Of a stretch of 61,214 nt of DNA, positions 839 to 15,739 are shown one piece after another. Location of the stretch: positions 1-61,214 of IMG/VR virus record IMGVR_UViG_3300049733_000144; one strand, 5' to 3'. A model generated the notes under the pieces. The model made no database searches. It saw nothing but the letters and a program-made list of their open reading frames with translations, and had not been told where the DNA came from. The translations under genes and the position numbers were made by a program. The number at the start of each line of letters is the position of its first letter. Positions within the stretch are counted from its first letter, which is position 1. Source of the DNA: a virus.

Positions 839-869
839 ATCATCCTGCAGCGTGCCATAGCTGACGCAG

Positions 870-887
870 CCATGGTCAAGACCATGG
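870..887. promoter_or_regulatory. 8-bp inverted repeat with 2-nt spacer (operator-like)
   Basis: CCATGGTC-AA-GACCATGG lies between the NusG-like gene (ends 928) and the HNH gene (starts 838). The two-base spacer is too short for a normal RNA hairpin loop, so a dimeric protein-binding site is more natural than a terminator. It may be chance; no partner protein is identified. Confidence 0.3.
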
Positions 888-927
888 TAGCCGAGGAGCG
901 ATTCAATCCTGGAATTTACAGAAGCCT

Positions 928-1395
928 TCAGACTTCAACCAGATCGCCCTCTAGAGCTTCGATAATCCGCTCCGATCCAAACATCTCTAACAAAACGCGA
1001 ACCCTGTTGACGCTGATCTTGTCGTAGAAAGAGCAAATCGCGTGATCCAGCCTGGACAGCTTGACTTTCTGTCCTTTCTTGAACCTGGAACGAAGCAATA
1101 CAACAATTCCGTGCTTGTTTTCCATCCTGCGAAGGCCTTCCACGAAGGAATCGGGAACATTCCTGGAAAGAACCTGGATGACGCCGAGCGTTTCTTTGAG
1201 GGCCCTGATCCCGTTGATCAGCGTTCTGACGAACACGTACTCGTAGAACAGAGGAATGATTCTTCGCTTTTTTCCATTTTTCGGCGGCTTGCTGCTCAGA
1301 ACAAGAGGCTGGTAGTGTTCGACCTCCTGATCATTGAATCTCTTGATCGCCAGTTTCATGACCCGGCGATCGATCCGAACGACCGTCCAAGACAA
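928..1395 (-). CDS. NusG/RfaH-like transcription elongation (antitermination) factor
   Basis: 155 residues. It starts with the NusG N-terminal (NGN) pattern: SWTVVRIDRR, then a Lys/Arg-rich segment, then PLFYEYVFVRT at about 48-58, which matches the family's P-L-F-x-x-Y-x-F-V strand. The C-terminal 60 residues read like a KOW domain (KKGQKVKLSR; RVRVLLEMFG). The start is TTG at 1395, because an in-frame TAG lies 15 nt upstream and GGAGAAGG lies just before the TTG. NusG paralogues (RfaH, LoaP) bind RNA polymerase and suppress termination. Being the last-but-one gene before the terminase on the same strand suggests control of the late transcript (inference). Confidence 0.78.
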   Translation of the reverse strand: MSWTVVRIDRRVMKLAIKRFNDQEVEHYQPLVLSSKPPKNGKKRRIIPLFYEYVFVRTLINGIRALKETLGVIQVLSRNVPDSFVEGLRRMENKHGIVVLLRSRFKKGQKVKLSRLDHAICSFYDKISVNRVRVLLEMFGSERIIEALEGDLVEV

Positions 1396-1746
1396 GGGCC
1401 TTCTCCACTAATCCGATCTAATCGCTTTTTGACCACAAGAAAATCGCGGATGCCAGAGTGTACCGTCGTACAACTCGCTGACCATTTTCAGGCCAGAAAA
1501 CAAAACGATGAACTGTGATCGAGAAATTTGACAATTGACAATTTTATTGTTAAAACAGGGAAGCATAGGAACGAAAGTCAAAGTCTTATATTATGACTAT
1601 TGTCTATTTTTACCCCTATTTTAACCTTTATAAAAATAAGGATATATATATAGTAGAGTTATAAAGAGTAGGAAACGCATCCCAAATTTGACAATTGTCA
1701 AAAAAAAACAAGAAAAACATAACAAAATCAACAAACCAAAAAATCT
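1396..1746. promoter_or_regulatory. AT-rich intergenic region with TTGACAATTG repeats
   Basis: This 351-bp gap between primase-helicase and the NusG-like gene is the largest non-coding stretch in the window and is far more AT-rich than its surroundings. It contains a perfect 16-bp palindrome, TTTGACAATTGTCAAA (1687-1702), and a half-matching copy, TTTGACAATTGACAATT (1527-1543). An (AT)n tract, ATATATATATAG, lies near 1641-1653. TTGACA resembles a -35 hexamer on either strand, but I found no well-spaced -10. It probably holds the promoter and operator of the NusG-HNH transcript (inference). Confidence 0.5.
1687..1702. promoter_or_regulatory. Perfect 16-bp palindrome, likely operator
   Basis: TTTGACAATTGTCAAA reads identically on both strands, and its half-site TTGACAATTG recurs at 1528-1537. 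It lies downstream of primase-helicase and upstream of the NusG-like gene. A symmetric site of this kind is typical of a dimeric repressor or activator; the cognate protein is unknown. Confidence 0.45.
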
Positions 1747-3975
1747 TCAAAATTCCATCCATTCTTTGGCGAGGGCTTCAACGTCCAAAACCCTGGTAGT
1801 TTTCAGCAGCTCCTTGATCGGAATCTCAGTCATGGATTTGCTGCTGCACAGCACCCTTCCGTGCCTCCAGGTGGCATCCACGGCTACCTGATCAGGGTGC
1901 ACGAACCATCCTTTGGCTTTGGCAACTTTCCGGATAGTAAGGGGTTTTTCCAGCCTGTCGTTCTGGCGTCCGTCGTAGATGATGGCTCTGATCAATTTTA
2001 CGAACTTGACGTCGTAGATCGCCACTCCTGGGCTCTTCCACTCTCCGTTCGTGGCGGTCTGCGGCCTGGTGTTCCTGGCGATCCAGTCCTGGTCCTGCAT
2101 GTTGTCTGCTATCTTGTCCAGGAGGCCCGAGACCAGCGATTGCCCAGGCGAATATCCTTCTTCTATGACTTCCTTCTTCTGCGTGCTCCACGGAGCCGAA
2201 GAAGACCTGTCCACGGCGTCGTTCGTCTTGAGCCAAGTCTCGGCCCAGTGCTTGATTGCCTCCAGGCCACCGCCGTCGGTCAGCCACCTGTTGAGCTCGT
2301 TCCAGTATTCCGGAGTCTTTTTCTCGTCCGTGACCTTGGGAACGAACCAGCGCCTGTCGTCGCCGGACAGCTGGATGGCCCGCATGGAGTTGCTGCAAGC
2401 GAACACGTGAAGCCAGTTGTCGATGTCGTAGTCAGCGAGATATTTCTTGCGAACAGAGCACTCCTTGTCGGTGAGCACGGACTTGAGCTTGTTGTATGCC
2501 TTGCTGCTGTGGCCGGCGTAGATCTCGTGAACGACGGCCAGCCGCTTGTGGGCCTGCCAGTAATTGAAATTGGAATCGACGATGTCCGACTCGGAAGGAA
2601 ACGACGCGTTATTGCGCCCGACCAGAGGGCACAAGATCCGCTCTCCGAGCGTTCCTTTGCCGACGCCCTGCGTCTCGCTGATGAGGAGAACGCCGTAATT
2701 CATCTTGATTTCCGGCTTCGCTATCAGCGTCGCGATCCAGCGGAGAATCTCCGTCCTGTCGGACTCGACGGGAATCAAGTTCGCCACGAATTCCAGGAAC
2801 GGTCCGGGATCACCGGCTTCTGCTTTCACCGAGCTCGGAACGTGCGTGTTGATGAATCGCCCCGAATCTCCAGAGCCGTATATTCCCGGTTTCTTCGAAG
2901 GATCGTACTTGATCACGGCAGTCTTGCTGGCTCCGTCGACGCGCATCAGCCTAGCCGTGTCTTCGACGTCGGAGAACGGCCGCACGGTGTTGTTGAACTC
3001 GCGATCCGACAGCATGCGGTCCGGCCAGTCTCGGTGGACGAACACCTCCGGCCTGACGCAGTGGAGCCACTCTTCCTTGAACGCCCTCCTGATGACGTGA
3101 TATGTCCGGCGGCCGTTCAGAAGAGTCTCCGTGGCGTGAGTCGCCGGCACCATCAAGTCGCGGAGTCTCGGTCCGATCCAGCGGTTTCTGACGAACAAAT
3201 TTTCGGGCATGTCGTCGGCCATGTCCCAGGCCAGAGGCCAGCGGCCGTCGAACCGAACTCCCTTCAGGGCTCCGCCGTACGCCTTGGAGACGATCTGGAG
3301 GGCCGCCTGGCCCTCCCAGTCGTTGTCGCAGACGTACACCACCTCCGTCGGCCTGGCCCGCCTGAGCTCGCTGTAGTCGGTCCTGTGCGGCGCCAAGGCT
3401 CCGCCGATCATTCCCCAGTGGGCGTACTGAGCCAGCTCGTCGCGCCACGGGTGCCGGTCTCCGACGCGATCAGCCGCCATGGCCGCCTTCGCGCCTTCGT
3501 GGATCATGATCCGAGGTCTGGTGACCTCTGGCTTCCAGAACGGCAGGCTGCCGTCTGGCTCCATGGCTCGCCACTCGCCGTCAGAGAACAGAGTCCAGGA
3601 AACGTACTTTTTCCTGCCGTCGCCTTCGCGTCGCTCCTGGAGCATCACGATGCCGTCGCGGGCCAGGTTCCAGAACGCGGCGACCTGAGTCATCCCGCGT
3701 CGCTGCTCCAATTCCCGCGCGTTGGCGCTTGTGGCCAGGACCGCCCGCGGCCAGTTCGCCGTCAGGACGGCCGTCCGGATCGCCGTCGCCTCGTCCTCCG
3801 TGGGCTCGAGCGATGGATCGGTTACTGTCACCGATCCATCAATTCCAATTCTTATGATGGCTTTCTCTGTGTAATAGTTCCTGTCGTGGTTGTACTCTTT
3901 CACCATGTACTTGCGAAAGTTGATTTGCTCCGCGCCGATCCTGTCCGCGTAGGCCTCGAGTGCCGGCAGTCGCAT
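1747..3975 (-). CDS. Primase-helicase (TOPRIM-like domain plus superfamily 3-type ATPase)
   Basis: 742 residues. The N-terminal half has TOPRIM-like elements: IHEGAKAA at about 158-165 and VYVCDND at about 213-219, the acidic residues that bind metal in primases. The C-terminal half is a D5/DUF5906-like helicase: Walker A SETQGVGKGT at about 433-442, Walker B-like LAVVHEI near 479, sensor VFACSNS near 524 and an arginine motif GDDRRWF near 538. It would prime and unwind at the phage fork. It is transcribed away from the divergently oriented polymerase block. There is no separate primase or replicative helicase elsewhere in the window. Confidence 0.85.
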   Translation of the reverse strand: MRLPALEAYADRIGAEQINFRKYMVKEYNHDRNYYTEKAIIRIGIDGSVTVTDPSLEPTEDEATAIRTAVLTANWPRAVLATSANARELEQRRGMTQVAAFWNLARDGIVMLQERREGDGRKKYVSWTLFSDGEWRAMEPDGSLPFWKPEVTRPRIMIHEGAKAAMAADRVGDRHPWRDELAQYAHWGMIGGALAPHRTDYSELRRARPTEVVYVCDNDWEGQAALQIVSKAYGGALKGVRFDGRWPLAWDMADDMPENLFVRNRWIGPRLRDLMVPATHATETLLNGRRTYHVIRRAFKEEWLHCVRPEVFVHRDWPDRMLSDREFNNTVRPFSDVEDTARLMRVDGASKTAVIKYDPSKKPGIYGSGDSGRFINTHVPSSVKAEAGDPGPFLEFVANLIPVESDRTEILRWIATLIAKPEIKMNYGVLLISETQGVGKGTLGERILCPLVGRNNASFPSESDIVDSNFNYWQAHKRLAVVHEIYAGHSSKAYNKLKSVLTDKECSVRKKYLADYDIDNWLHVFACSNSMRAIQLSGDDRRWFVPKVTDEKKTPEYWNELNRWLTDGGGLEAIKHWAETWLKTNDAVDRSSSAPWSTQKKEVIEEGYSPGQSLVSGLLDKIADNMQDQDWIARNTRPQTATNGEWKSPGVAIYDVKFVKLIRAIIYDGRQNDRLEKPLTIRKVAKAKGWFVHPDQVAVDATWRHGRVLCSSKSMTEIPIKELLKTTRVLDVEALAKEWMEF

Positions 3976-4111: not shown

Positions 4112-4657
4112 ATGACAGATCGCCTCGAAGACATAACGCGCCTCGCGTCCGCGGCCCGCGTCCTGGAAGCGGAGATCCTCCGCGACGAAATCGCTCTCTC
4201 CCACAAGAAGGCTCGACTCCAGCGCGTCCTCCATGACCAGCTGCCGAGCCTGATGTCGGCCGCCGGCGTCGACGACCTGTCGCTTCAGGCCAGCGACGAC
4301 CTGCCGGCGACTGATTTCTCCCTCGGCGGCTACTACAGGGCCTCGATTCCGGTCTCGTGGTCGGCGGAGCGGCGCCAGGAAGCATTTTCCACGCTTCGCG
4401 CCCGCGGAGCCGACGGCCTGATCAAGACCAACGTTCAAGTTCAGTTCGCCAGAGGCTCTTCCCTGGAAGCCCGCGTCCTGGCCGACTCGCTCGCGGCCAG
4501 AGGCTATGAACCGTCGCTCTCAGAGACGGTTCACTCTTCCACCTTGTCCGCGTGGCTCCGCGAGCTCTACTCCAGCGGCCTGTCGCTGACCCAGGACGAC
4601 CTGGACAGGATCGGAGGCAATGTCGGTCAGATCGTTCGCATGAAACCAAGGGAGTGA
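4112..4657 (+). CDS. Conserved phage hypothetical protein with N-terminal coiled coil
   Basis: 181 residues. Residues 1-45 are charged and helical (RLEDITRLASAARVLEAEIL), with a coiled-coil look. The remainder contains an Arg-rich stretch (SAERRQEAFSTLRARGADG) and ends in MKPRE. The ATG at 4112 is preferred over the in-frame TTG at 4055 because the extra 19 residues look untranslated and a weak GGTGA precedes 4112. It is followed after 1 nt by the next gene. I do not recognise a domain; as the first early gene it may take part in replication or recombination (inference). Confidence 0.7.
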   Translation: MTDRLEDITRLASAARVLEAEILRDEIALSHKKARLQRVLHDQLPSLMSAAGVDDLSLQASDDLPATDFSLGGYYRASIPVSWSAERRQEAFSTLRARGADGLIKTNVQVQFARGSSLEARVLADSLAARGYEPSLSETVHSSTLSAWLRELYSSGLSLTQDDLDRIGGNVGQIVRMKPRE

Positions 4658-4658
4658 C

Positions 4659-5465
4659 ATGACCAAAGAGATCAAGACGACGACGACGCCGCCGTCCGTT
4701 CCCGATTACCTCAAGGGCCACGTTCCCACCGGCGCGGGAGTTCCCACCAAGTCCAGCGACTTCCTGATTCCCATAGCCAAGGTCCTCGATCCGAAGTCAC
4801 CGGAAGTCGAGCGCAGAGGCCCGTCCTACGTCAAGGGCGCGGAGCCCGGCGACGTCCTGATCAAGTCCGGACCCATTCCCCTGATCAAGGGCGAAGTTGG
4901 TTTCCTGTTCCAGCTCTGCCACATAGAAGAGGCCGCGATCGAGTGGCTGCCCAGGACCAGGGGCGGCGGCGGCGGAGGTGGCTTCGTGGCCAGGCATCCC
5001 GTGGAAGCTCTGCGGACGGCTAAGCAGGAAACCGCGGAAGGCGGCAAGATTGTCTGGATCAACGACCGAGGCAATTTCCTGGTGCACACCCGCTACTACA
5101 CGGGATACATGCTGGCCGCCGACGCCGGGCCTCTGGCCATGGTGATACCGTTCGCGTCCACCGGCCACACGGTGGCCAAGGGCTGGAACCTCCTGATCGC
5201 CAACCAGGTCCTCAACGGCCACACCGCCGACGTCTGGATGGTGTACTACCGACTCAGGACGCGACTCCGCACCAGGGCCGACCAGGCCTGGTACGTGTTC
5301 GAAGTCTCCAACGCTGGTCCGGACCATCCCACCTACGGCACGCCGACCGCCATGTGGGCTCCGACTCCGGCCGACCTGGCCAGAGGCCAGACGCTGAACA
5401 GGGAGATGGAAGCCGGCCACAGGCAGCCCGACCCAGCCGCCGTCACCGAGGAGGCTCCGTTTTGA
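4659..5465 (+). CDS. Conserved phage hypothetical protein, early replication block
   Basis: 268 residues. No catalytic motif is recognised. Seen are a Thr/Pro-rich N-terminus, a glycine loop (RGGGGGGGF near 102-110) and a C-terminal acidic, Pro-rich tail ending in EEAPF, reminiscent of the acidic tails of single-stranded DNA-binding proteins. The central part is rich in beta-strand-forming residues (MVYYRLRTRLRTR). An ssDNA-binding role fits the position and tail but is a guess. Its stop overlaps the TTG start of the next gene by 3 nt within TTGA. Confidence 0.65.
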   Translation: MTKEIKTTTTPPSVPDYLKGHVPTGAGVPTKSSDFLIPIAKVLDPKSPEVERRGPSYVKGAEPGDVLIKSGPIPLIKGEVGFLFQLCHIEEAAIEWLPRTRGGGGGGGFVARHPVEALRTAKQETAEGGKIVWINDRGNFLVHTRYYTGYMLAADAGPLAMVIPFASTGHTVAKGWNLLIANQVLNGHTADVWMVYYRLRTRLRTRADQAWYVFEVSNAGPDHPTYGTPTAMWAPTPADLARGQTLNREMEAGHRQPDPAAVTEEAPF

Positions 5466-6427
5466 TCATCGTCGGCGCCGGCATGGCGGGCCTCCTGGCC
5501 GCCAACATGCTCAGGCACAGGGACCCGATCGTCGTCGAGTCTCAGTCGGAGTTGCCGAACAACCACTCGGCGGTTCTTCGCTTTCGCTCCTCCGTGATCG
5601 GAGACCTGCTCGGGATACCGTTCAAAAAAGTGAAAGTCCTGCGATGCGTGGCGACGTCGCAGGACAACGTCGTCGCGCACTCCCTGGCATATTCCCAGAA
5701 AACTCTCGGCGTCATCATGTCGGATCGGTCGGTCGGATCGGTGGAAGCCGTCGATCGATACATCGCTCCGCCAAATTTAGTCATGCGGATGTCGAGAGGC
5801 ATCCGCATAAAGTGCGACACGAATTTCGATTTCAAGGCCGCGAAGGAAAAAGTCATCTCCACTGTTCCGATGTCGTATCTGCATCGCGCCCTGATGCCTG
5901 AATCGAAAATCCATGATCTGGATTTTCGATACGCCCACGGCTTCAACATATCGGCGGTGATCGAGAGCTGCGACGCCTACGCGTCCGTCTACGTGCCGGA
6001 CCCGCGTCATCCGTTCAGCAGAGTCTCGATCACCGGCCACGATCTGATCATCGAGTATGCGTTTCCAGGCAAGACTTACGATCAGGTTCAGAAGCTGGCC
6101 GCGATCAAGGCCATGGGCAAGGCCGTCACCGACGACGTCGAGGCCGCGATGCTCCTCCTTGGCCTCCGCCCCGAGATCGCGACGTTTCCAGTCATCCGCC
6201 CCCAGCGGTTCGCGAAGATCCTTCCCATCGACGATCGCAAGCGGAAGGCTTTCATCTACTGGGCTTCGACGGCGAAGGGCATCGCGTACCAGCTCGGTCG
6301 ATATGCCACGTGGCGTCCGGGACTCTTGCTCGACGACCTGGTCAACGACGTTCGCACGATCGACGGCTGGATCAGCCAGGGCGAAGCCCAGGGCTACGCC
6401 ATGGACATCCACGAGGCCAGGCAGTGA
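5462..6427 (+). CDS. FAD-dependent oxidoreductase (amine oxidase / UDP-galactopyranose mutase-like)
   Basis: 321 residues starting at TTG 5462 inside TTGA; GAGGAGG at 5448-5454 decides this start. The dinucleotide-binding motif is at the very N-terminus (IIVGAGMAGLLAANML, GxGxxG at 5-10), followed by an acidic VVESQ end of strand 2. VISTVPMSYL in the middle is a pattern of the amine oxidase/protoporphyrinogen oxidase/UGM superfamily. Substrate unknown. Neighbours are an FkbM methyltransferase and, further on, ThyX. Modification of a nucleotide or sugar precursor is possible; flavin enzymes act in some phage DNA-hypermodification pathways, but no partner transferase of those pathways is recognised here. 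Confidence 0.75.
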   Translation: MIIVGAGMAGLLAANMLRHRDPIVVESQSELPNNHSAVLRFRSSVIGDLLGIPFKKVKVLRCVATSQDNVVAHSLAYSQKTLGVIMSDRSVGSVEAVDRYIAPPNLVMRMSRGIRIKCDTNFDFKAAKEKVISTVPMSYLHRALMPESKIHDLDFRYAHGFNISAVIESCDAYASVYVPDPRHPFSRVSITGHDLIIEYAFPGKTYDQVQKLAAIKAMGKAVTDDVEAAMLLLGLRPEIATFPVIRPQRFAKILPIDDRKRKAFIYWASTAKGIAYQLGRYATWRPGLLLDDLVNDVRTIDGWISQGEAQGYAMDIHEARQ

Positions 6428-7131
6428 TCACGCATTATCGCCGCGGCACGGCAGACGAGAACGCCATGCGAGAGGTGAGATCATATTTCAGAATCATGGG
6501 AGCCAACGGCCTTTCCCTGGCTGGCAAGAGAGTCCTCGACATCGGAGCCCACATCGGCTGCTTCACCAGGGCGGCCCTGGACGCCGGCGCCGACAGAGTG
6601 CTGGCTTTCGAGCCCCACCCGAAGAATTACGAGCTTCTGACCATGAACTGCCAGGACGCGAGAGCCGACCTGAGGCAGGCCGCTCTGGTGTCCGACAACA
6701 GGACTGAAACTAGTCTGGTGGTGGGCAGGAGACATAATCCCGACGTCGGAACGGAAAGGTTCTCCACGTCCAGGAGACAGAAAGGCAATCTCCACGTGGC
6801 CACAGTCGAGTGTCAGAAATTCAGCGCAGTGCTGCGAGATTTCAATCCGCAGGTGATCAAGCTCGACGCCGAGGGAGCCGAGTACGACCTGCTCAATTCT
6901 CAGCAGCTGCCTGACGACGTCGAGTTCCTGGTCGGAGAGTTCGACTGCTCCGGCAGCTTTCGCCTGCCAGACGGCGGCATGACCGGGACCGTCGGGCTCA
7001 AGAACTACGAGCCTCTGTGGGCCCTGATCACCAACTTGGAAAAGCAAAGGTTCAGGTACATCGGCAGGACTGACATGCGACTGCCGAAGAAGATTTTCCT
7101 GATCCACGTGCTGTTCATCAAAATAGCGTGA
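6424..7131 (+). CDS. FkbM-family SAM-dependent methyltransferase
   Basis: 235 residues starting at GTG 6424, overlapping the previous stop within GTGA. The SAM-binding motif I is LDIGAHIGCFTRAAL; the post-I acidic residue is in LAFEPHPKNYELL; the family hallmark VIKLDAEGAEYDLL comes later. FkbM enzymes O-methylate sugars and small molecules. A separate FkbM gene lies in the late glycan block (48562-49215); this early copy is paired with the FAD enzyme instead. The target is unknown. Confidence 0.82.
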   Translation: MITHYRRGTADENAMREVRSYFRIMGANGLSLAGKRVLDIGAHIGCFTRAALDAGADRVLAFEPHPKNYELLTMNCQDARADLRQAALVSDNRTETSLVVGRRHNPDVGTERFSTSRRQKGNLHVATVECQKFSAVLRDFNPQVIKLDAEGAEYDLLNSQQLPDDVEFLVGEFDCSGSFRLPDGGMTGTVGLKNYEPLWALITNLEKQRFRYIGRTDMRLPKKIFLIHVLFIKIA

Positions 7132-7157
7132 AATAAACATGGCCAAGCGCGGAACAA

Positions 7158-7187
7158 TTACTTACTTACAGAATTTGTGACAAAGCA
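7158..7187 (+). promoter_or_regulatory. TTACTTACTTAC box, degenerate promoter cassette
   Basis: The tandem TTAC box (7158-7169) matches the cassettes at 14.3-19.9 kb. The downstream part (TTTGTGACAAAG) has TG but only a poor -10. It lies between the FkbM gene and the first GGCNN array, so any transcript starting here carries the array in its leader. Confidence 0.4.
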
Positions 7188-7198
7188 GTGAACGCAGA

Positions 7199-7263
7199 GG
7201 CCGGGCCGGGCGTGGCTGGGCGCGGCTCGGCTGGGCTAGGCCGGGCGAGGCAAGGCAAGGCAA
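7199..7263 (+). repeat. GGCNN pentamer array 1 (13 perfect units)
   Basis: Thirteen consecutive 5-nt units all begin GGC; positions 4 and 5 vary freely (CG, CG, GT, TG, GC, TC, TG, TA, CG, GA, AA, AA, AA). The last three are GGCAA. It ends 24 nt before the ATG at 7288, so it is a 5' leader. Repeated GG every 5 nt is the spacing of a two-layer G-quadruplex, but conservation of the C suggests sequence recognition too. Confidence 0.9.
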
Positions 7264-7287
7264 GCAAGACAATGATGGAGCACGACG

Positions 7288-7906
7288 ATGCTGGACAAGA
7301 CAGTGATCGCGACCAAAGCGACGGAGATCCAGACCAGAAGCGTGATGCTTCGGGGACTGACGGATATCATGTTCGACCGCTACCCGGGAGACAACAACAC
7401 CAAGCTGGAGCCGTGGCAGAAGCTCTACCTGGAACCTGGCGGGTCACGGGTTATTGGGCTGCCGGCGCTGAACATCATGTCGTTTCTTTCGGCCCACAAC
7501 ACAAATTCCGCTCCTAAGCGGCTGCGCGACAAGCGCAAGTACAAAGACCTGGCTAACGCGATGCTGTCGTTCGTCAGCATCAGGGAGCAGTTCATTCCTC
7601 TGCTCCGCAACAACGCTCCGATCGTGTTCGGCAAGTTCGACGGAGACAGAGATGCGGTCAGCGGCGCTTACGTGGCCTATCACGTCGCGCGGCTCGACAA
7701 GGGCGTGCCCAACCCGAAGGTCCGTCCCGTGGTGCCTCTGGACTGGGCCGTTCGCTTCACGGTCGACATCTTTCCCAATCGGGGAGATCAAGGAAACCGA
7801 CATCACCAACCTGATGGAAGAAGGCGGGCGAGCCATTGGCCTCGGGACTTTCCGCGGCGTGTTCGGCAAGTTCCGCATCGAAGAGTGGAACGAGATCAAG
7901 AGCTGA
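7288..7906 (+). CDS. Conserved early phage protein, reading frame shifted by +1 near 7774
   Basis: The intact protein would be about 206 residues. Frame 1 from ATG 7288 (GGAG 7 nt upstream) reads a sensible protein to VDIFPN. From about 7774 the sensible continuation is in frame 2 (GEIKETDITNLMEEGGRAIG, then GTFRGVFGKFRIEEW) to the TGA at 7904-7906, whereas frame 1 becomes Arg/His-rich. The junction is TTT CCC AAT CGG GGA; skipping one base restores the frame. This may be a sequencing indel, a real mutation or programmed +1 frameshifting at CCC. I associate the C-terminal GTFRGxFGxF pattern with a conserved phage family of unknown role. It is flanked by GGCNN arrays on both sides. Confidence 0.7.
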
Positions 7907-7911
7907 AATTC

Positions 7912-8031
7912 GGCGTGGCCGGGCTCGGCCAGGCGCGGCGGGGCGCGGCTGGGCATGGCGTGGTGCGGCCAGGCTGGGCACGGCGTGGCACGGCAGGGCA
8001 TGGCATGGTAGGGCCGGGCAAGGCGAGGCGA
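7912..8031 (+). repeat. GGCNN pentamer array 2 (24 units)
   Basis: Twenty-four consecutive 5-nt units; 22 begin GGC and two begin GGT (units 11 and 20). Positions 4 and 5 vary. It begins 5 nt after the preceding stop and ends 11 nt before the ATG of thyX; the last units supply GGCGAGG, which doubles as the thyX ribosome-binding site. The phase is unbroken for 120 nt. Same organisation as array 1: the array fills the gap and ends at a start codon. Confidence 0.9.
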
Positions 8032-8042
8032 GGAAATAAATC

Positions 8043-8801
8043 ATGCGCGTCACACTGATCGACTACACCGGCAAGGGCTCTCCGAGCGAGCGCTGGAGGG
8101 CCGCGGACCTGATGATCTTCACCAAGAGCACCAGGGTCGCGATGTCGCCGTCTCTCCTCGACGAGATCACCGCGTGGCCAGAGGACAAGAAGCTCGCCGA
8201 GCTCCAGTACATGGCCAACACCATTCCCAGCTCGTGGGAGTTCTGCGACTACACGTTCATGGTGGAAGGAGTCACCCGCGCGCTGACGCACCAGCTGGTG
8301 CGGCACCGCCACATGTCGTTCGCCCAGCAGACCATGCAGATCCTCGACATGAGCCAAGGTCCGGGGTGGACCTATGAAGAGGGCCCTTCTCTCAGGGCTT
8401 CTTCATCTGGAAGTTCTTTGTATCAAAGGACCATGGAGAACGTGGCCAAGGGATACGCCCTGCTTGTCAAGACACCCGGCGTGCGGATAGAGGACGCCAG
8501 AGGAGTTTTACCAACCAACATCCACACCAACATCGTGGTCAAGGCCAACATGCGCTCCCTCGTGGAGCTGTTCCACAAGCGCGACAGTCCCAGGAACCTG
8601 TGGGAGATATCAGCCTTGATGGATCTCATCAAGGCCGAGGTTCTCAAGGCTCACTCGTGGATGGATTTGTTCATCAACAGAACATTCGACCAGGCGGCCA
8701 AGGACCTCGACAAGGAGCTCCGCTCGCTCGACGGCGTGGCTCCAGACAAAGTTAATCGCATGATGAAGCTGGTCGATCAGATGAGGATGAAATCGTCGTG
8801 A
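8043..8801 (+). CDS. thyX: Flavin-dependent thymidylate synthase ThyX
   Basis: 252 residues. The ThyX signature is present as RHRHMSFAQQT (87-97), corresponding to RHR-x7-S but with Thr at the last position. THQLVRHR and the C-terminal half (FHKRDSPRNLWEISALM) fit the fold. ThyX methylates dUMP using methylene-tetrahydrofolate and FAD/NADPH, giving dTMP for phage DNA synthesis. GAGG at 8030-8033, supplied by the pentamer array, is the likely ribosome-binding site. The Ser-to-Thr change is conservative; altered chemistry on dUMP cannot be excluded. Confidence 0.88.
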   Translation: MRVTLIDYTGKGSPSERWRAADLMIFTKSTRVAMSPSLLDEITAWPEDKKLAELQYMANTIPSSWEFCDYTFMVEGVTRALTHQLVRHRHMSFAQQTMQILDMSQGPGWTYEEGPSLRASSSGSSLYQRTMENVAKGYALLVKTPGVRIEDARGVLPTNIHTNIVVKANMRSLVELFHKRDSPRNLWEISALMDLIKAEVLKAHSWMDLFINRTFDQAAKDLDKELRSLDGVAPDKVNRMMKLVDQMRMKSS

Positions 8802-9232
8802 CGTTCGTTGTTCTCTGCGACCTAGACCACACCGTCAGCGACGCCTCCTGGAGGGACGCCATGATCGACGGCAAGAACTGGGACGCCTACCACCAGGCCG
8901 GCTTCGAGGACAAGCCTCTGACTAAGATCATCGCTGTCGTCAGGGCCCTTCGAAACAGCGGCGCCACCGTGATCGGGCTCACCGCGCGACCAGAAAAATG
9001 GCGACAAGAAACAATCCGTTGGTTAGTGACCAACGGATGTCCCATGGACGAGATACTGATGCGGCCCGAAGGCAACCACATGCCGTCGCCTCAGGTCAAA
9101 GTCATGCTGGCCAGGCAGCGCTTCGGAGATCTGTCTGAGATCACCGTGGTGATCGACGACAGGGAGGACGTGTGCTCGGCGTTCGTCGCCGAAGGCGTCT
9201 CGGCCTTCCGCTGCGTGGCGGTGCCGCGATGA
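8798..9232 (+). CDS. HAD-superfamily phosphatase
   Basis: 144 residues from GTG 8798 (GTGA overlap with thyX). HAD motifs in order: I = CDLDHT (nucleophile and acid/base Asp), II = GLTARPE, IV = VVIDDREDVC. It resembles the 3'-phosphatase domain of T4 polynucleotide kinase and phage nucleotidases. The likely substrate is a nucleotide or a DNA 3'-phosphate. Translational coupling to ThyX suggests nucleotide metabolism. Confidence 0.8.
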   Translation: MTFVVLCDLDHTVSDASWRDAMIDGKNWDAYHQAGFEDKPLTKIIAVVRALRNSGATVIGLTARPEKWRQETIRWLVTNGCPMDEILMRPEGNHMPSPQVKVMLARQRFGDLSEITVVIDDREDVCSAFVAEGVSAFRCVAVPR

Positions 9233-9774
9233 ACAAGACCGTGCCCGACAGGCTCGCGGCCCTGGCCGACATATATCGGAGCAGAAACACTCTCTATTCC
9301 GACAACTACAAGCGCCTCGGCGACGCGCTGATCGCGATCTGGCCGAAAGGATTGTTCCTGCGCACGCCGCAAGATTTTCTGCGCTTCAGCATGTTCAACA
9401 TGCTGATCCACAAAATTTCCAGATACGGCGTCAACGTCCTGGCAGGCGGCCACGCCGACAGCTTGGACGACCTGGCCGTGTACGCCGTGATGATCAGAGA
9501 GTTGGACGATGAGCTCAACGTTCCTGTTCGATCTAGAAACCACAGGCCTGATGGCCAACCGCACCATGGCGCTGTCGCGGCAGCCCGAGGTGATCGAAGT
9601 CTACGCGTGCCTGGCAAGCCTGGAAACAGGAGAAACGAAGGCCGAAGTCGCGAGCCTGATCAGGCCGCTGGGCAAGCTGCCGGAAAGAGTCACCAAGATA
9701 ACCGGGATAACAAACGACATGGTGTTCGCGGAAGGCGTACCGGTGCTGGCAAAGCTGATCGGAGGCCTGATTGA
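9229..9774 (+). CDS. DUF6378-like phage protein with out-of-frame-looking tail
   Basis: ATG 9229 overlaps the previous stop (ATGA). Residues 1-94 look like a known phage family (YSDNYKRLGDALIAIWPKG; HKISRYGVNVL; GHADSLDDLAVYAVMIRELD). After codon ~94 (about 9510) the frame has no stop until 9772, and the last ~87 residues are Arg/Gly-rich, as expected from reading the overlapping exonuclease gene in the wrong frame. Either a 1-nt indel removed a stop near the ATGA at 9509, or the two genes truly overlap by 266 nt. Function unknown. Confidence 0.6.
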   Translation: MNKTVPDRLAALADIYRSRNTLYSDNYKRLGDALIAIWPKGLFLRTPQDFLRFSMFNMLIHKISRYGVNVLAGGHADSLDDLAVYAVMIRELDDELNVPVRSRNHRPDGQPHHGAVAAARGDRSLRVPGKPGNRRNEGRSREPDQAAGQAAGKSHQDNRDNKRHGVRGRRTGAGKADRRPD

Positions 9775-10051
9775 CATGATCCACAGTTCCGACCTGGTGA
9801 TCAGCCACAACGCGTCGTTCGACACGGAAGTCCTCGAAGTGGAGGCCGAGCGCTGCGGCAAAAGGATCATCTGGCCCAGGGTCCTGTGCACCGTGGAGCA
9901 AACGATATCACTGAGAGGATATCGCTTGTCTCTCGGCGAGCTCCACGAGCACTGCTTCGGCGTCAAGTTCACCGGAGCCCACAGAGCCAGGGACGACGTC
10001 CAGGCCCTTCTTCGCTGCTGCGTTCACCTCAGGGCCGAGGGCGTGATATGA
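9509..10051 (+). CDS. DnaQ-like DEDDh 3'-5' exonuclease (proofreading subunit)
   Basis: 180 residues. DEDDh motifs: Exo I FDLETTGL (7-14), Exo II SHNASFD, Exo III AHRARDDVQAL. It is the size of the exonuclease domain of the bacterial epsilon subunit. The polymerase gene downstream is of the polymerase III alpha type, which lacks its own proofreading domain, so this protein probably proofreads for it. The stop overlaps the next start in ATGA. Confidence 0.87.
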   Translation: MSSTFLFDLETTGLMANRTMALSRQPEVIEVYACLASLETGETKAEVASLIRPLGKLPERVTKITGITNDMVFAEGVPVLAKLIGGLIDMIHSSDLVISHNASFDTEVLEVEAERCGKRIIWPRVLCTVEQTISLRGYRLSLGELHEHCFGVKFTGAHRARDDVQALLRCCVHLRAEGVI

Positions 10052-10524
10052 CGATGATCCTGATCGGCATGAACAACCCGCACGCCGACGAGGCCCTGGT
10101 GCCGACTCGCAGAGGAGACGCCGCGTCTCGACTCGAAGCCATAACCGGCGTCACCATCAAGGACCACTTCGATTGCCTGAACATGTGCTGCGATCGATAC
10201 TGGAACCCCGCGGCGGCTCGCAGGCGAGGCGTCATCATTCGCCAGATAGTCACCGAGGCAGGCGTCGACAAGGTGGTCGTCCTGGGCAGAGATGCCTGGC
10301 GAGCCCTGGGTTTCAAGGCCGCCGAGAGCGCGATAGTGATAGTGGCCAACAAGTGGCACCGAGTGCCTCACCCGTCGGGGAAGAACCTGTGGTACAACTC
10401 GCAAGCGAACAGAACGAAAGTCAAGAGGCTATTCGAAGCGCTCGTCAAATCGAGCGAGAGCTCATCGACGCCTTTCGTCGCGTCGGCGTCGATGTCAAGT
10501 TTGGAAGCGGAGAGTGCTTCGTAG
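10048..10524 (+). CDS. Uracil-DNA glycosylase superfamily-like protein
   Basis: 158 residues from ATG 10048. The start ILIGMNNP, the middle VVVLGRDAWRALGF and the C-terminal HPSGKNLWYN match the general plan of the uracil-DNA glycosylase fold (GxNP-type loop and H-P-S-G loop). No clear catalytic Asp/Asn of a classical family is evident, so the activity is uncertain. The last ~25 residues (Ser/Ala-rich) are probably read past the natural domain and overlap another frame. A base-repair or base-modification role fits the ThyX/HAD context. Confidence 0.62.
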   Translation: MTMILIGMNNPHADEALVPTRRGDAASRLEAITGVTIKDHFDCLNMCCDRYWNPAAARRRGVIIRQIVTEAGVDKVVVLGRDAWRALGFKAAESAIVIVANKWHRVPHPSGKNLWYNSQANRTKVKRLFEALVKSSESSSTPFVASASMSSLEAESAS

Positions 10525-10601
10525 AGCTGAGCGACGACAAGGAGCTTCGAATCTCTGACCTGGTGTCAGCCCTTACTGATCACGTCACGCCACGGAGGTG
10601 A
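10389..10601 (+). CDS. Small protein overlapping the end of the UDG-like gene
   Basis: Proposed 70 residues from GTG 10389, with GGGGAAG at 10377-10383 before it. The reading (RQIERELIDAFRRVGVDVKF, then ELSDDKELRISDLVSALTDH) is protein-like and ends 6 nt before the next ATG. It shares 136 nt with the preceding gene in a different frame. Alternatively it is the natural C-terminus of the preceding protein after a frameshift. Function unknown. Confidence 0.45.
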   Translation: MVQLASEQNESQEAIRSARQIERELIDAFRRVGVDVKFGSGECFVELSDDKELRISDLVSALTDHVTPRR

Positions 10602-10607
10602 AACGCA

Positions 10608-10958
10608 ATGACCGAGCTCAGAAACCACCGCATCATCGAGTACAGGGACAAGAAAAGCGACAGGATGATCAAGGCCCTCCTCTGCGTGTCGCGCAACGAC
10701 AAGTACAGAGACTCGGTGGCCCTGACCATCCAGACGTTCAAGGACGCCATCGCCGCCTACGGCATCGAGCAGGTCTGCGTCGAGCTCCCTGGCAACAGGA
10801 GATACCGACTCGCCCTCGATCTCGTGTGGGAGAAGATCAACAGCGCGGACCGCATCCACGTCGGCGGCGACGGCAGCGAGTTCCTGATCCTCCGCTTCGA
10901 GGACGACGACGAGTGGAACTCCGCGGAGCTCAAGCACTCCTCGAGGCACCAGCGATGA
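10608..10958 (+). CDS. Small conserved hypothetical protein upstream of the polymerase
   Basis: 116 residues. Mixed alpha/beta composition with an acidic centre (HVGGDGSEFLILRFEDDDEW). GGAGG lies a few nt before the ATG. The stop overlaps the DnaE start in ATGA, so the two are translationally coupled. No family recognised; a polymerase accessory role is only suggested by position. Confidence 0.65.
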   Translation: MTELRNHRIIEYRDKKSDRMIKALLCVSRNDKYRDSVALTIQTFKDAIAAYGIEQVCVELPGNRRYRLALDLVWEKINSADRIHVGGDGSEFLILRFEDDDEWNSAELKHSSRHQR

Positions 10959-13822
10959 GGGTCAGGACGGGCTACTCGTTCCGGGCGGCCGTAGGCCACC
11001 TCGAGGAAGTAATCAATCGCCTACAGGCGATCGATTATCCCGCAGCTCCGATCTCTGACCGCTGCTCGACGTTCGGGTTCTCGAAGTGGGACAAGCTGAC
11101 GCGGAAAGCCGGCCTCCGCCCCGTCTTCGGCGTCGAGCTGGCGGTCGTGCCAGAACTGGGACAGAAAAGACCAGTGGTAGATCACTGGTCGTTCTTCGCC
11201 AAGGAGTCTCTGCGACCCCTCCACGACTTGATCGCCAAGGCCACGTCCAACCACGGCAAGGAGCCCAGCGTCCTCTACGGCCAGGCCCTCGCCGCCGCTG
11301 GCCTGATCAAAGTGGCCGGCGCCAGGGTTCTGATCAACAAGGTGCCGACCGACTCGACAGACTTCTATGTCGCGTTGTCTCCTTCCACTCCAAAATTCCT
11401 CTACACTGCCGCCACGCGAAATGGATTTCGCATGGTCGCTTCGTCGGACAACTACCACACGCTTCGCTCCGATCTGGAATTCTACCGCGTCGCACTCGGC
11501 TCCAGGTCCAGCACGCAGACTTACCCGACCCACATATTGTCGGACCAGGAGTGGCGCGACTCGGTGGCTTGGTTCGCCGACGAAGATGTCGTGACCAGAG
11601 CTCTGGCCACGAGAAACGACCTGCTGGCCGCGTGCCGAGCCGAGATCATCAAGGCCGACCTGCTGGTGCCAGCCAAGCCCAAGTCTCTGCGGCAGATGTG
11701 CCAAGAAGGAGCCGAAATAAGAGGAATAAATTTGAGTGATCAAATTTATTCCTCTCGCCTCGACCGAGAGCTCTCGATCATAGCCGAGAAAAAATTCGAG
11801 GACTACTTCTACATCCTGGCGGACATGGTGGCGTGGGCCAGGGAGCGGATGGTCGTCGGCCCGGCGCGAGGCTCCTCTTGCGGGTCGCTCGTTTGCTACT
11901 TGATCGGCATCACGGCCATCGATCCGATCCCGTTCAAGCTGGTGTTCGAGCGGTTCATCGACGTGACCAGGGCCGACTTGCCGGACATCGACGTGGATTT
12001 CAGCGACGCCAATCGCCACCTCGTTTTCGAGTACGCGGAGCAGAAGTACGGCAAAGACAGAGTCGCAAGGCTCGGCTCCGTCGGCACGTTCCAGCCGGCA
12101 TCTGTGTTCAACCGGCTGTCCGACGCGCTCAGGATACCGTCGCATGAGATCGAAAAAGTCACCAACAGCCTGATCAAGCGATCGAGGGGAGACTCGCGCG
12201 CCAGCCAAACCATAGAAGACACGTTCAACGACACCGAGGCCGGCAAGGAGCTGGTTCGCGATCACCCGGAAGTCAAGATCGCCTTCAGGCTTGAGGACCA
12301 TCCCACCAACGCCGGCCAGCACGCCGCCGGAGTGGTGATCACGAACACTCCGGTCGCGGACCACGTCGCGGTCGACATGCGAACGGGCGCGATCATGGCC
12401 GACAAGAAAGACGCGGAAGAGCTCGGCCTGCTCAAGATCGACGCGCTCGGCCTGACTCAGCTTTCCACGTTCGAGCGGACGATGGAGCTGATAGGCAAAC
12501 GTCCCGTCTCGGGTTGGCTCGAGACTCTGCCGATCGACGACCAGTCGGCGTTCGACGTCCTCAACAGGAAGCACTTCGCCGGAGTGTTCCAGTTTATCGG
12601 CAAATCCGTCAGGTCTCTGGCAGAGGAAATTAAGATCGACCGCTTCGGAGACTTAGCCGACATAACAGCCCTGGCCAGGCCTGGCCCTATAGGCGGCGGC
12701 GGAGCCGACGACTGGGTGGCCCGCCGAACCGGAAAGAGACCAGTGACCTACGTCCACCAGGCGTTCGAGCCTTACCTCAAGGACACATACGGCGTGGTGG
12801 TGTACCAGGAGCAGGTCCTGGCCATAGGTCGCGAGATCGGAGACTTGTCGTGGGAGGAAGTAACCGGCCTTCGCAAAGCGATGTCCCGTTCCCTGGGCAA
12901 AGAATACTTCGACGCCAACGGCGGCAACAAGTGGAAGGACGTGGCCACGGCCAAGGGCATTCCCAGGGAGACCGCCGAGAAGATGTGGGACGAGATCTGC
13001 TCGTTCGGTCTGTGGGCATTCAACCTGGCGCACTCGGTGGCGTACGGCATGGTGAGCTACTGGTGCTGCTGGCTCAAGGCCCATCACCCGCTCGAGTTCG
13101 CCGCCGCCACGCTCGATGCCGAGTCGGACCCGACGCGCCAGGTCACCGTCCTCCGCGAGCTCGCCGAGGAAGGCGTCGAGTATCTACCCGTCGATCCAAA
13201 CTTGTCGACGGATAGATGGACGGTTCAGCGCGGCGACAGGCCGCGGCTGATCGGCCCGCTGACGGCGATCAAAGGCATAGGTCCGGCGAATGTCCTCACC
13301 ATCCTGGACGCCAGGAAGAACGGAGTCGAGCTGACACCTGGCCTCCGCAAGAAGCTCGAGTCGCCGAAAACCGAGATCGACAGCTTGTATCCGATCAGCA
13401 AAGCCGCGTCGCCGTTGATGGAAAAGAAAAAAATCGAGACTCCGCGCTGGGACATCAAAGACGTTCAGCCCAGCGTGGCCCAAGAAGTCATGATCGTCGG
13501 CGTCGTGACCAAGATCAACCCGTCGAACGAGAATGCTCCCATCAAAGTCGCGCGACGCAACGGCCAAAAGGTCTACCCTGAGATGGCCCTCAACATGTTC
13601 GTCAAGGACGACACGGACGAGATCTTCTGCAAAGTCCACCGCAACAGCTACGAGCGAATAGGCAAAGAGATAGCGGCCGAGAGCCGCGTTGGCAAATCGA
13701 TTTACGCCATCAAGGGCAGACCCCAGGCCGGAGATTTCCGAATGATCTGGGTCAGGGCAGTTCGCTACCTCGGAGAGATCGATGGCAAAGAGAAAAACCC
13801 GGTGCTGGAGCAGAGCGGCTGA
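10955..13822 (+). CDS. dnaE: DnaE-type DNA polymerase III alpha subunit
   Basis: 955 residues, shorter than typical cellular DnaE (about 1100-1200). The ATG at 10955 is chosen because the ~119 upstream in-frame codons are a shadow of the preceding gene. The catalytic Asp pair is in LPDIDVDFSDA (D346, D348) and the third Asp in LLKIDALGL (D496). GQHAAGVV, the palm/thumb segments and a helix-hairpin-helix (IKGIGPANV) are present, then an OB-like C-terminus. The N-terminal PHP domain is degenerate: the usual metal-binding HxH near the start is replaced by RTGYS, so PHP proofreading is lost. With the DnaQ-like protein and primase-helicase it forms a phage replisome. Confidence 0.92.
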   Translation: MRVRTGYSFRAAVGHLEEVINRLQAIDYPAAPISDRCSTFGFSKWDKLTRKAGLRPVFGVELAVVPELGQKRPVVDHWSFFAKESLRPLHDLIAKATSNHGKEPSVLYGQALAAAGLIKVAGARVLINKVPTDSTDFYVALSPSTPKFLYTAATRNGFRMVASSDNYHTLRSDLEFYRVALGSRSSTQTYPTHILSDQEWRDSVAWFADEDVVTRALATRNDLLAACRAEIIKADLLVPAKPKSLRQMCQEGAEIRGINLSDQIYSSRLDRELSIIAEKKFEDYFYILADMVAWARERMVVGPARGSSCGSLVCYLIGITAIDPIPFKLVFERFIDVTRADLPDIDVDFSDANRHLVFEYAEQKYGKDRVARLGSVGTFQPASVFNRLSDALRIPSHEIEKVTNSLIKRSRGDSRASQTIEDTFNDTEAGKELVRDHPEVKIAFRLEDHPTNAGQHAAGVVITNTPVADHVAVDMRTGAIMADKKDAEELGLLKIDALGLTQLSTFERTMELIGKRPVSGWLETLPIDDQSAFDVLNRKHFAGVFQFIGKSVRSLAEEIKIDRFGDLADITALARPGPIGGGGADDWVARRTGKRPVTYVHQAFEPYLKDTYGVVVYQEQVLAIGREIGDLSWEEVTGLRKAMSRSLGKEYFDANGGNKWKDVATAKGIPRETAEKMWDEICSFGLWAFNLAHSVAYGMVSYWCCWLKAHHPLEFAAATLDAESDPTRQVTVLRELAEEGVEYLPVDPNLSTDRWTVQRGDRPRLIGPLTAIKGIGPANVLTILDARKNGVELTPGLRKKLESPKTEIDSLYPISKAASPLMEKKKIETPRWDIKDVQPSVAQEVMIVGVVTKINPSNENAPIKVARRNGQKVYPEMALNMFVKDDTDEIFCKVHRNSYERIGKEIAAESRVGKSIYAIKGRPQAGDFRMIWVRAVRYLGEIDGKEKNPVLEQSG

Positions 13823-13849
13823 TCGAGCATTTCCCGCGGCCGCCGAACA

Positions 13850-13873
13850 GCGGGTTCGATTCCCGCGACCGGG
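13850..13873 (+). other. T-arm-like hairpin downstream of dnaE (not a full tRNA)
   Basis: GCGGG-TTCGATT-CCCGC is a perfect tRNA T-arm (5-bp stem, 7-nt TTCGATT loop), followed by GACCGGG, which pairs over 6 of 7 positions with CCCGGTG at 13798-13804. No proper D-arm or anticodon arm can be folded between them, and the 5' part lies inside dnaE. It could be a tRNA relic, a tRNA-mimicking element or chance. Confidence 0.3.
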
Positions 13874-13894
13874 GCCGAGTGATACGATCGTCGT

Positions 13895-14284
13895 GTGCGC
13901 GATGGCAATCTCAGATCGATTTTCGCCAGGAATATCACAGAGGCCCACTGGCAGCCGGTGGAGACCTGGAGCACCGGCCAGGGCGTGCCGGACACCGAGT
14001 ACTGCCTCGACGGCGCGACGGGATGGATCGAGTTCAAGAGGGTCACCGGCTGGCGCGTGGACCTGGCTCCATTCCAGGTGGCGTGGCTCCTGAGGCGGCA
14101 TCGAGCCGGTGGTACTGTCCTAGTGGCCTCCAGGAAAGACGAAACGCTGTGGCTCCACTGCGGCAGCCAGGCGGCATTCCTGGCCAAAGAAAGGGTTGAC
14201 CAGGTGCCTCCGGTCCTGGTCACCACTGGAGGGCCCGCGGCCTGGGACTGGCAAGCCGTCAAAGAGGCGATGAAAAAGAAATAA
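13895..14284 (+). CDS. PD-(D/E)XK nuclease, Holliday-junction-resolvase/VRR-NUC-like
   Basis: 129 residues from GTG 13895. The catalytic core is GVPDTEY (30-36), then WIEFKR about 10 residues later, matching PD-x(n)-E-x-K. QVAWLLRRHRAGG is the helix that often follows in VRR-NUC and resolvase-like enzymes, then TVLVASRK. It lies directly after the polymerase gene, fitting junction or recombination-intermediate resolution before packaging. It ends in a Lys run (MKKK). Confidence 0.75.
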   Translation: MRDGNLRSIFARNITEAHWQPVETWSTGQGVPDTEYCLDGATGWIEFKRVTGWRVDLAPFQVAWLLRRHRAGGTVLVASRKDETLWLHCGSQAAFLAKERVDQVPPVLVTTGGPAAWDWQAVKEAMKKK

Positions 14285-14312
14285 AATTTCGCCAAAACAA
14301 CGCGCTTTCCTA

Positions 14313-14340
14313 TTTACTTACTTACTCTTTGTGGTACAAT
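14313..14340 (+). promoter_or_regulatory. Promoter cassette P1 (TTAC box plus extended -10)
   Basis: TTACTTACTTAC at 14314-14325 is followed by an extended -10, TGG-TACAAT (14335-14340). The leader GTCTCACGATCAGGGAGAC (14342-14360) has a 5-bp inverted repeat (GTCTC/GAGAC) with the ribosome-binding site AGGGAG in its 3' part. It drives the 50-residue gene at 14366. AATAAAATTTCGCC precedes the box, as in P2, P5 and P7. Confidence 0.75.
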
Positions 14341-14365
14341 GGTCTCACGATCAGGGAGACGGAAA

Positions 14366-14518
14366 ATGAAAACCTTCATCGTGCGATATCAGGACCCCAA
14401 GAAGCCTTGGGAAGACAAAGTTGAAAAGTTCAAGGACGAGACCAAGGCGATCGCGCGGATGCGCAAGCTGATCGCGCAGAAGGTGCAGGACGTAACGATC
14501 ATGTCATATCAAGCCTGA
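14366..14518 (+). CDS. 50-residue early protein
   Basis: Lys-rich small protein beginning MKTFIVRYQDPKKPW, with KAIARMRKLIAQKVQD in the second half, so one beta hairpin and one helix are likely. It has its own P1 promoter and AGGGAG/GACGG ribosome-binding site. Function unknown; small early genes with private promoters are often host-takeover proteins (inference). Confidence 0.7.
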   Translation: MKTFIVRYQDPKKPWEDKVEKFKDETKAIARMRKLIAQKVQDVTIMSYQA

Positions 14519-14524
14519 CGGGAG

Positions 14525-14719
14525 ATGAAAATAACCAGCATGCCACTGAAATGCTCGATCTGCCGCCAGGAGATACCGCCGTACCACGGCTGGAGGCACG
14601 GCTGCAGCGCCTGGCCGATCAACCTGGGCCGCTGCTGCCACGACTGCGACCAGAAGGTGGTCCTGCCCGAGAGGATCAGGCGCCTAGCCGCCCAGATCGC
14701 CGCCGAAAAAAAGAAATAA
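14525..14719 (+). CDS. 64-residue zinc-ribbon-like protein
   Basis: Contains CSIC (9-12) and, after a His-containing loop (YHGWRHGC), CCHDC, a likely four-Cys or Cys/His zinc site, then a basic C-terminus ending in EKKK. The start is uncertain: ATG 14525 directly abuts GGAG, whereas ATG 14540 has GGAG 15 nt upstream. No family named. Cotranscribed with the gene at 14366. Confidence 0.65.
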   Translation: MKITSMPLKCSICRQEIPPYHGWRHGCSAWPINLGRCCHDCDQKVVLPERIRRLAAQIAAEKKK

Positions 14720-14736
14720 AATTTCGTCTTTTCCTA

Positions 14737-14764
14737 TTTACTTACTTACTCTTTTTGGTAAGAT
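14737..14764 (+). promoter_or_regulatory. Promoter cassette P2
   Basis: TTACTTACTTAC (14738-14749), extended -10 TGG-TAAGAT (-10 at 14759-14764), leader with GTCTC (14766-14770) and GAGAC (14780-14784). Same spacing and leader as P1. Drives the gene at 14789. Confidence 0.75.
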
Positions 14765-14788
14765 GGTCTCACGATCAGGGAGACGAAA

Positions 14789-14947
14789 ATGACCACCGAC
14801 AAGAAAATCTTTGCTGAAATCGATTCGATCCTGAAACGGGCCGAAGAATTGGAAAAAAATCCGCCCAAGAAAACGATTTCTTATGCGGAATTTTTGGCCA
14901 AGCGAGGTATCGACATCGATAAAATCATCAAGGAAACTCCCTGCTGA
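14789..14947 (+). CDS. 52-residue early protein
   Basis: Charged, mostly helical small protein (EIDSILKRAEELEKNPPKK, then YAEFLAKRGIDIDKIIKE). It has its own promoter cassette P2 and the AGGGAGACGAAA leader. Function unknown. Confidence 0.7.
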   Translation: MTTDKKIFAEIDSILKRAEELEKNPPKKTISYAEFLAKRGIDIDKIIKETPC

Positions 14948-14991
14948 TGGGATTTTCCTTTTTCCACTCACTCACATCACAGGAGCCTACC

Positions 14992-15477: not shown

Positions 15478-15483
15478 AAAATA

Positions 15484-15518
15484 AAGGGTGCCAAAATCTG
15501 TTTTGTTTTGGCACCCTT
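15484..15518 (+). terminator. 13-bp perfect stem-loop, terminator-like
   Basis: AAGGGTGCCAAAA (15484-15496) and TTTTGGCACCCTT (15506-15518) form a 13-bp perfect stem with a 9-nt loop. It comes 7 nt after a stop codon. The stem ends in T residues but lacks a long U tract, so it may work as a weak terminator or mRNA-end stabiliser. Confidence 0.65.
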
Positions 15519-15566
15519 AGCACTCAAGTTGATTCGGCGAAACACATCACCATCACGGAGGCTACC

Positions 15567-15737
15567 ATGTTGAGAAACCTGACTTCGTTCGAGCTGGCCG
15601 TGCTCGAGGGCAGCGGCCAGATGCTCCCGGACGATCCGTACGAGCGCGAGGAGGAGATCAACCGACTCGCCCGCCAAGCGCTTCGCGATTACGATCGCGC
15701 GTTCAGCTCGATCCTTGACGTTGATGACGACTACTGA
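15567..15737 (+). CDS. 56-residue acidic early protein
   Basis: Starts MLRNLTSFELAVLEGS and ends SSILDVDDDY; strongly acidic C-terminus. CGGAGG lies 6 nt before ATG 15567. The leader (TCACGGAGGCTACC) resembles that of the DUF6011-like gene (TCACAGGAGCCTACC), suggesting reuse of a leader segment. Function unknown. Confidence 0.65.
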   Translation: MLRNLTSFELAVLEGSGQMLPDDPYEREEEINRLARQALRDYDRAFSSILDVDDDY

Positions 15738-15739
15738 CA

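Follow-up and report, generated by a model that had tools for sequence, protein, structure and literature searches.

A divergent NusG paralogue beside the packaging genes of a phage and a conserved RNA element behind nusG in other phages: a putative late-gene switch

The minus-strand gene at 928-1395 of a 61,214-base phage genome (an IMG/VR virus record classed as linear, the whole of which is called the window here) encodes a NusG paralogue at the boundary between the early and late genes. We consider it probable that this phage-owned protein attaches to elongating host RNA polymerase and makes it read through terminators and pauses of the late operon. With a little less confidence, we favour the existence of a widespread, unnamed class of late-gene switch, composed of a NusG paralogue, a structured leader RNA and a terminator, which would replace Q in many (mostly rhizobial) phages, the window phage being a far-diverged example. 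In the literature searched, we found no description of a phage NusG placed before packaging genes, or of a module of NusG, structured RNA and terminator at that position.

The nusG ORF of the window encodes 155 aa from a TTG start, with GGAG positioned 7 nt upstream. A TAG stop codon at 1410-1408 lies four codons before the TTG, giving an open frame of 159 aa; because the upstream frame is open for these four codons only, the TTG start is forced, as the initial annotation had proposed. The protein matched the NGN domain model of Pfam (PF02357; 2.1e-6, 28.6 bits against a cut-off of 22.2) and, over residues 2-145, PHROG 6386, a family labelled 'transcription antiterminator' (2.3e-6). The C-terminal part had no KOW match in Pfam and its sequence signature is degenerate. 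An AlphaFold model built from an alignment with 13 viral relatives (pLDDT 88.6) comprised two domains, an RfaH-like NGN and a KOW-type barrel of five strands (residues 110-154, pLDDT about 90). The NGN-like and KOW-like parts first noticed in the sequence were both recovered in this way, one by a Pfam match above its cut-off and the other as a modelled barrel.

Structure comparison against NusG, RfaH and LoaP had been suggested as a check, and the top structural matches of the model were RfaH and NusG (Foldseek/VIA-align). The NGN superposed on that of RfaH with a Z of 12.4 over 93 residues (2.6 A), and the barrel on the RfaH C-terminal domain with a Z of 7.8. The mutual placement of the two domains is untrustworthy, since the pTM was 0.63 and whole-chain superpositions had a large rmsd. 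RfaH grips RNA polymerase through the aromatic residues F51, Y54 and F56; these align with F50, Y53 and F55 of the window protein, so that the aromatics are kept. The hydrophobic face associated with S10 and Rho is partly kept (the F of IFG/MFG).

The window protein scored below the cut-offs of the NCBIfam models for RfaH (TIGR01955; 39.4 bits, cut-off 144.5), UpxY (NF033644; 38.7 bits, cut-off 100) and LoaP (NF033641; 16.5 bits, cut-off 125). The housekeeping NusG model was absent from its NCBIfam matches, the genomic context is that of a phage and not secE-nusG-rplK, and neither a Q nor an N family was among its matches in Pfam, PHROGs and NCBIfam. The protein is a NusG paralogue distinct from housekeeping NusG, and the curated models do not class it as RfaH, LoaP or UpxY. 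Judged by bit score, it is also divergent from the other phage NusGs, a profile of which gave it 38.8 bits, against 117.6 bits for E. coli NusG. Single-protein searches of phages, viral contigs and genome contigs recovered no close relatives, phmmer against PDB sequences found no match, and a search with an alignment of three sequences performed hardly better than a single protein. Other viral NusGs were reached only with an alignment that included RfaH and NusG. On its own, the window gene would count as a modest addition to a known family.

The gene sits between the replication genes and the packaging genes. Plus-strand genes at 4112-23109 are devoted to replication and metabolism (DNA polymerase III alpha, ThyX, a helicase and others), and minus-strand genes running from 61169 to 23290 encode terS, terL, capsid, portal, tail and lysis functions. 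Read along the minus strand with the ends of the record joined, the order is primase-helicase (1747-3975; PHROG 1156, 7.6e-22), NusG, an HNH endonuclease fused to a P-loop kinase-like domain (59-838), the genome ends, terS (60738-61169; PHROG 12559, 6e-29), terL (59225-60643; PHROG 9, 1.9e-98), a major capsid protein with a fused protease (57195-59228; PHROG 617, 4e-143) and the portal (55260-56669). The profiles agree with the initial annotation, which had placed HNH, terS, terL and the morphogenesis genes next to nusG across the ends. The best PHROG of the HNH-kinase protein is 4581, labelled terminase small subunit, despite the presence of the separate terS. Elsewhere in the genome, the head genes include one for a sialyltransferase-like protein (PHROG 4603; 53055-53705, minus strand), and the early region encodes an FkbM methyltransferase (6424-7131, plus strand).

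The junction across the ends is backed indirectly by L029, the one relative we recovered that shares the primase (59% identical to that of the window). Joining the window ends is supported because L029 carries primase, terS and terL in this order on one strand of a single contig; its terS, terL and portal ORFs were assigned by reading translations and not by profiles. Additionally, the same phage was present, 100% identical, in three further metagenome records (L002, L003 and L004). L004 is 100% identical to 47198-61214 of the window and begins exactly at base 61214, and our scan found no contig extending past that base; both observations are as expected of fixed (cos-like) genome ends.

No NusG or HNH gene lies between the primase and the packaging genes of the partial L029 contig, which shows NusG to be apparently accessory or dispensable in that lineage. 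This absence, together with the low similarity of the window protein to other phage NusGs, would fit a passenger gene, a host nusG paralogue acquired by chance with no role in late transcription. We regard this explanation as highly improbable, as the window protein has a complete two-domain fold in a frame that has been kept open, and nusG is found at the same place in unrelated phages.

A sequence-only search for viral relatives of NusG produced 15 contigs. In 12 of the 15, a co-directional gene for TerL follows nusG at a distance of up to about 5 kb (three of the 12, L049-L051, are mutually close relatives). In L043 the co-directional TerL gene lies further downstream, at about 11 kb, and the record of L041 contains none; L042 was rejected, as the protein it encodes is an RfaH almost identical to the E. 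coli one. Isolated phages gave the same picture: nusG stands just before terS/terL in seven out of seven, namely Rhizobium PPF1, Sinorhizobium phi2LM21 and phi3LM21, Agrobacterium Rivra, Mesorhizobium vB_MseS-P1, Nsp-JY10 from a Nostoc culture and Microcystis yong2. An HNH or hypothetical gene intervenes between nusG and terS-terL in these phages, and in PPF1, Rivra and yong2 the order spans the record ends. The preceding gene is annotated as a replication initiator or HTH protein in PPF1, phi2LM21, phi3LM21, Rivra and vB_MseS-P1, and encodes an unnamed protein in Nsp-JY10. In yong2, nusG is the last gene of an operon beginning with CII, and a replication gene, O-like or of another kind, stands upstream in several of the metagenomic contigs. 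Going by gene order, many unrelated phages have NusG where lambda has Q.

Some apparent phage NusGs were discarded. Salmonella, Acinetobacter and Listeria 'phage' records proved to be host DNA by name or annotation, and the UpxY-like L034 has efflux and ABC transporter genes as neighbours. The Microcystis phage MaAM05 (MW495066.1) has a bacterial-looking secE-nusG-rplK-rplA cluster around 38134; deposited as a 274-kb phage, this record also carries ilvD and other bacterial genes, and is probably a bacterial contig. Separately, the NusGs of L049, L050, L051 and L052 have a clear NGN and a C-terminal part without recognizable KOW sequence, and are still encoded just before terL. An acyltransferase-like cargo gene is found between nusG and HNH in L039 (10502-12540) and a transposase-like gene in the corresponding gap of L038; the nusG-HNH gap may be an insertion hot spot.

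The gap behind nusG was conserved in seven of the NusG phages, and contains an element in which helix P1 (CCYUGA/UCARGG) encloses helix P2, followed by GUGC-NNNN-GCUAUG. A degenerate DNA pattern derived from this gap was scanned over all IMG/VR viral contigs without protein information, and identified at least 120 stretches of viral DNA, 80 of which were fetched; the element is present in L063-L141, L045 and L053-L060. Of the 80 fetched loci (of at least 120), 76 extend 160 nt or more upstream of the element, and in all 76 a nusG gene ends 88-150 nt before it, compared with 0.6% at random sites. All 46 loci with sufficient sequence on the downstream side have a terL start within 2.7 kb. At 90% identity, the NusGs linked to the element in the fetched loci split into 59 clusters, and at 50% still into 19; the loci are therefore not one clone.

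The predicted structure is supported by covariation in an alignment of 66 copies, in which 94% of cells in P1 and P2 are paired. Double-sided changes occupied 55 cells against 16 +/- 3 in shuffles, and pairing fell to 18-47% when the helix partner was slid. The GUGC and GCUAUG segments were fixed by the search pattern with the loop (NNNN) left free; this free loop was GNRA or UACN in 77 of the 80 fetched loci. A terminator-like hairpin and T-run followed within 110 nt of the element in 47 of the 80 (59%), compared with 5.5% of random sites. Rfam 15 gave no match in eight loci including seven copies of the element. A leader-peptide reading (GUG-CNN-NNG-CUA-UGA) was rejected, as its stop is not kept. 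Neither core motif nor element matched at the right place behind the other NusG types (L036, L038-L052 except L045, and yong2); outside the PPF1/LM21 group, the viral NusG loci are without the core motif behind nusG.

As the element lies within 1-2 kb of terS/terL, it could instead be a DNA site for packaging (cos-like) or for protein binding, or else a riboswitch, with no connection to NusG. We judge this unlikely: two helices covary, the spacing behind the nusG stop is held at 88-150 nt, terminators stand behind the element, and the record ends of Rivra, PPF1 and the window do not coincide with the element but lie further downstream.

The window itself offers a candidate for a degenerate form of the element. 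Its nusG-HNH gap (839-927, minus strand), which corresponds to the site of the RNA element in related phages, contains TGCGTCAGCTATG, one base away from the common core form TGCGTAAGCTATG, behind a CCATG/CATGG stem. The candidate RNA (850-895, minus strand; stem CCAUG/CAUGG, then UGCGUCAGCUAUG) scored 9.5 bits with our covariance model R1 and was its best match when the first 5 kb were scanned (E 0.033); over the whole window its E value of 0.4 is not significant, and it ranked second to a match elsewhere. The core motif occurs once in the window, where 0.49 occurrences are expected, and the chance of finding it in this gap and on this strand is about 4 in 10,000, a value computed after the match had been seen. 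The same bases can also form a 9-bp hairpin, and no terminator was seen behind the candidate. The weakly recognizable sequence is suggestive, and we treat it as a lead.

The nusG gene of the window is preceded by an AT-rich leader (1396-1746, minus strand), predicted to be its promoter region. The leader includes the lowest-GC stretch of the genome (1524-1747, 25% GC), which is the likely site of a putative promoter of the NusG/late unit; promoter scans near nusG detected nothing above chance. The initial annotation had put NusG at the head of the late transcript. Its location at the early-to-late boundary is well supported, whereas the primase gene upstream is co-directional, and nusG would head the transcript only given a promoter in 1524-1747. 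The most AT-rich stretch of the genome is flanked by two copies of a 16-bp palindrome, TTTGACAATTGTCAAA, one perfect (1687-1702, the only full match in the window) and the other with two mismatches (1527-1542). The palindrome is found nowhere else in the window, for which 0.09 occurrences are expected at up to three mismatches. The copies are possible operators or a possible origin; an operator shared with relatives was rejected, as the sequence was found in none of the other loci.

A general host-takeover function would be another use for such a protein. A phage NusG could compete with host NusG for RNA polymerase and disturb Rho-dependent termination or transcription-translation coupling throughout the cell; by its fold, the NusG domain would occupy the same site as host NusG, and its own AT-rich leader could provide strong expression. 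However, a general factor need not adjoin terS, yet this position recurs, and a large group of the phages has a dedicated RNA element behind nusG. We consider host takeover rather unlikely.

Within the late operon, a strong intrinsic terminator is predicted just behind the capsid gene (57151-57186, minus strand). The hairpin has a folding energy of -31.1 kcal/mol (z -4.24) and is followed by TTTTT, which upholds the internal terminator of the initial annotation. Single terminators behind the capsid gene are common in phages, and this one does not by itself demand an antiterminator. Together with the terminators that directly follow the RNA element in many relatives, it points to read-through rather than to a protein that acts mainly on translation, in which the barrel would recruit the ribosome (S10) to late mRNA in the manner of RfaH. 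We find translation coupling as the main effect quite unlikely, though the barrel fold is kept, the S10/Rho face is partly kept, and RfaH comes closest among the NCBIfam and PDB matches; one role does not rule out the other. No rival explanation covers position, element and terminator together as well as antitermination does.

Our preferred model is as follows. The NGN domain of the window NusG would bind elongating host RNA polymerase, the protein having been loaded at the late-gene leader. In the large group of phages, loading would depend on the RNA element, in the fashion of LoaP; the window phage may use the same principle with a diverged element. Polymerase carrying NusG would then pass pauses and terminators such as that at 57151-57186 along a late operon of roughly 38 kb. 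The outcome would be antitermination, the job of lambda Q carried out by the NusG-family route known from RfaH and LoaP. We infer polymerase binding, recruitment by the element and antitermination; no experiments on any of these phage NusG proteins were found in the literature searched. The initial annotation had offered a NusG paralogue as a simple alternative to Q or N. The paralogue at the early-to-late boundary supports that proposal in part, and the recurrent placement in other phages makes it considerably stronger, while antitermination is the presumed activity and the cis element of the window is weak.

In anatomy, the phage element resembles the LoaP/dfn system. LoaP of B. velezensis binds a UNCG-type leader hairpin with a terminator behind it (PMC12691694), and the two systems would share a NusG paralogue, a long operon and a small tetraloop leader hairpin followed by an intrinsic terminator. 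LoaP differs in being cellular, in serving antibiotic operons and in its UNCG loop, whereas in the phage element the loops are GNRA or UACN and two additional helices covary. The passages found in a study of phiLM21-like prophages of Sinorhizobium meliloti (PMC12429752) report a transcription antiterminator, present in all of them, and an HNH gene at the end of the early region, as in the window; NusG is nowhere named in the paper, and those passages describe no RNA element. A Helicobacter prophage paper mentions, in the part found, a NusG-like regulator (PMC11321410). In the Caulobacter gene transfer agent, GafYZ likewise bring about antitermination of a packaging and structural gene cluster in an alphaproteobacterium; GafZ works with host NusA, NusG and NusE and is not a NusG paralogue (PMC11150451). 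Lambda Q, which according to the passage found binds DNA at the late promoter (PMC6606751), is an unrelated protein. Its likeness to the window NusG is confined to the presumed outcome and to gene location, both genes closing the early region ahead of the late and packaging genes. RfaH of E. coli and plasmid PrfaH/ActX share operon-specific processivity and are the best structural and NCBIfam neighbours, but RfaH is recruited by a DNA element (ops) and not a leader RNA, and the window protein falls below the RfaH cut-off. A further comparison is with the PHROG 6386 phages (L045-like phages such as PPF1 and phi2LM21), which have the same fold family before HNH, terS and terL. In contrast to these, the window phage is a 61-kb phage with its own DNA polymerase, a much diverged NusG with its own AT-rich leader, and a barely recognizable element.

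The standard teaching examples of phage antitermination are lambda N and Q, the put RNA of HK022 and p7 of Xp10. For alphaproteobacterial phages, no late regulator of the kind proposed here was found described in the literature searched. It is notable that Rfam lacks a family for an element present in at least 120 stretches of viral DNA. With 66 aligned variants from 19 NusG clusters (50% identity), the element makes RNA recognition by NusG paralogues testable, and it serves as a marker of the early-to-late boundary in these phages. Should the modules function as their anatomy suggests, phages would have made a late-gene switch out of a universal elongation factor, in parallel to LoaP in bacilli.
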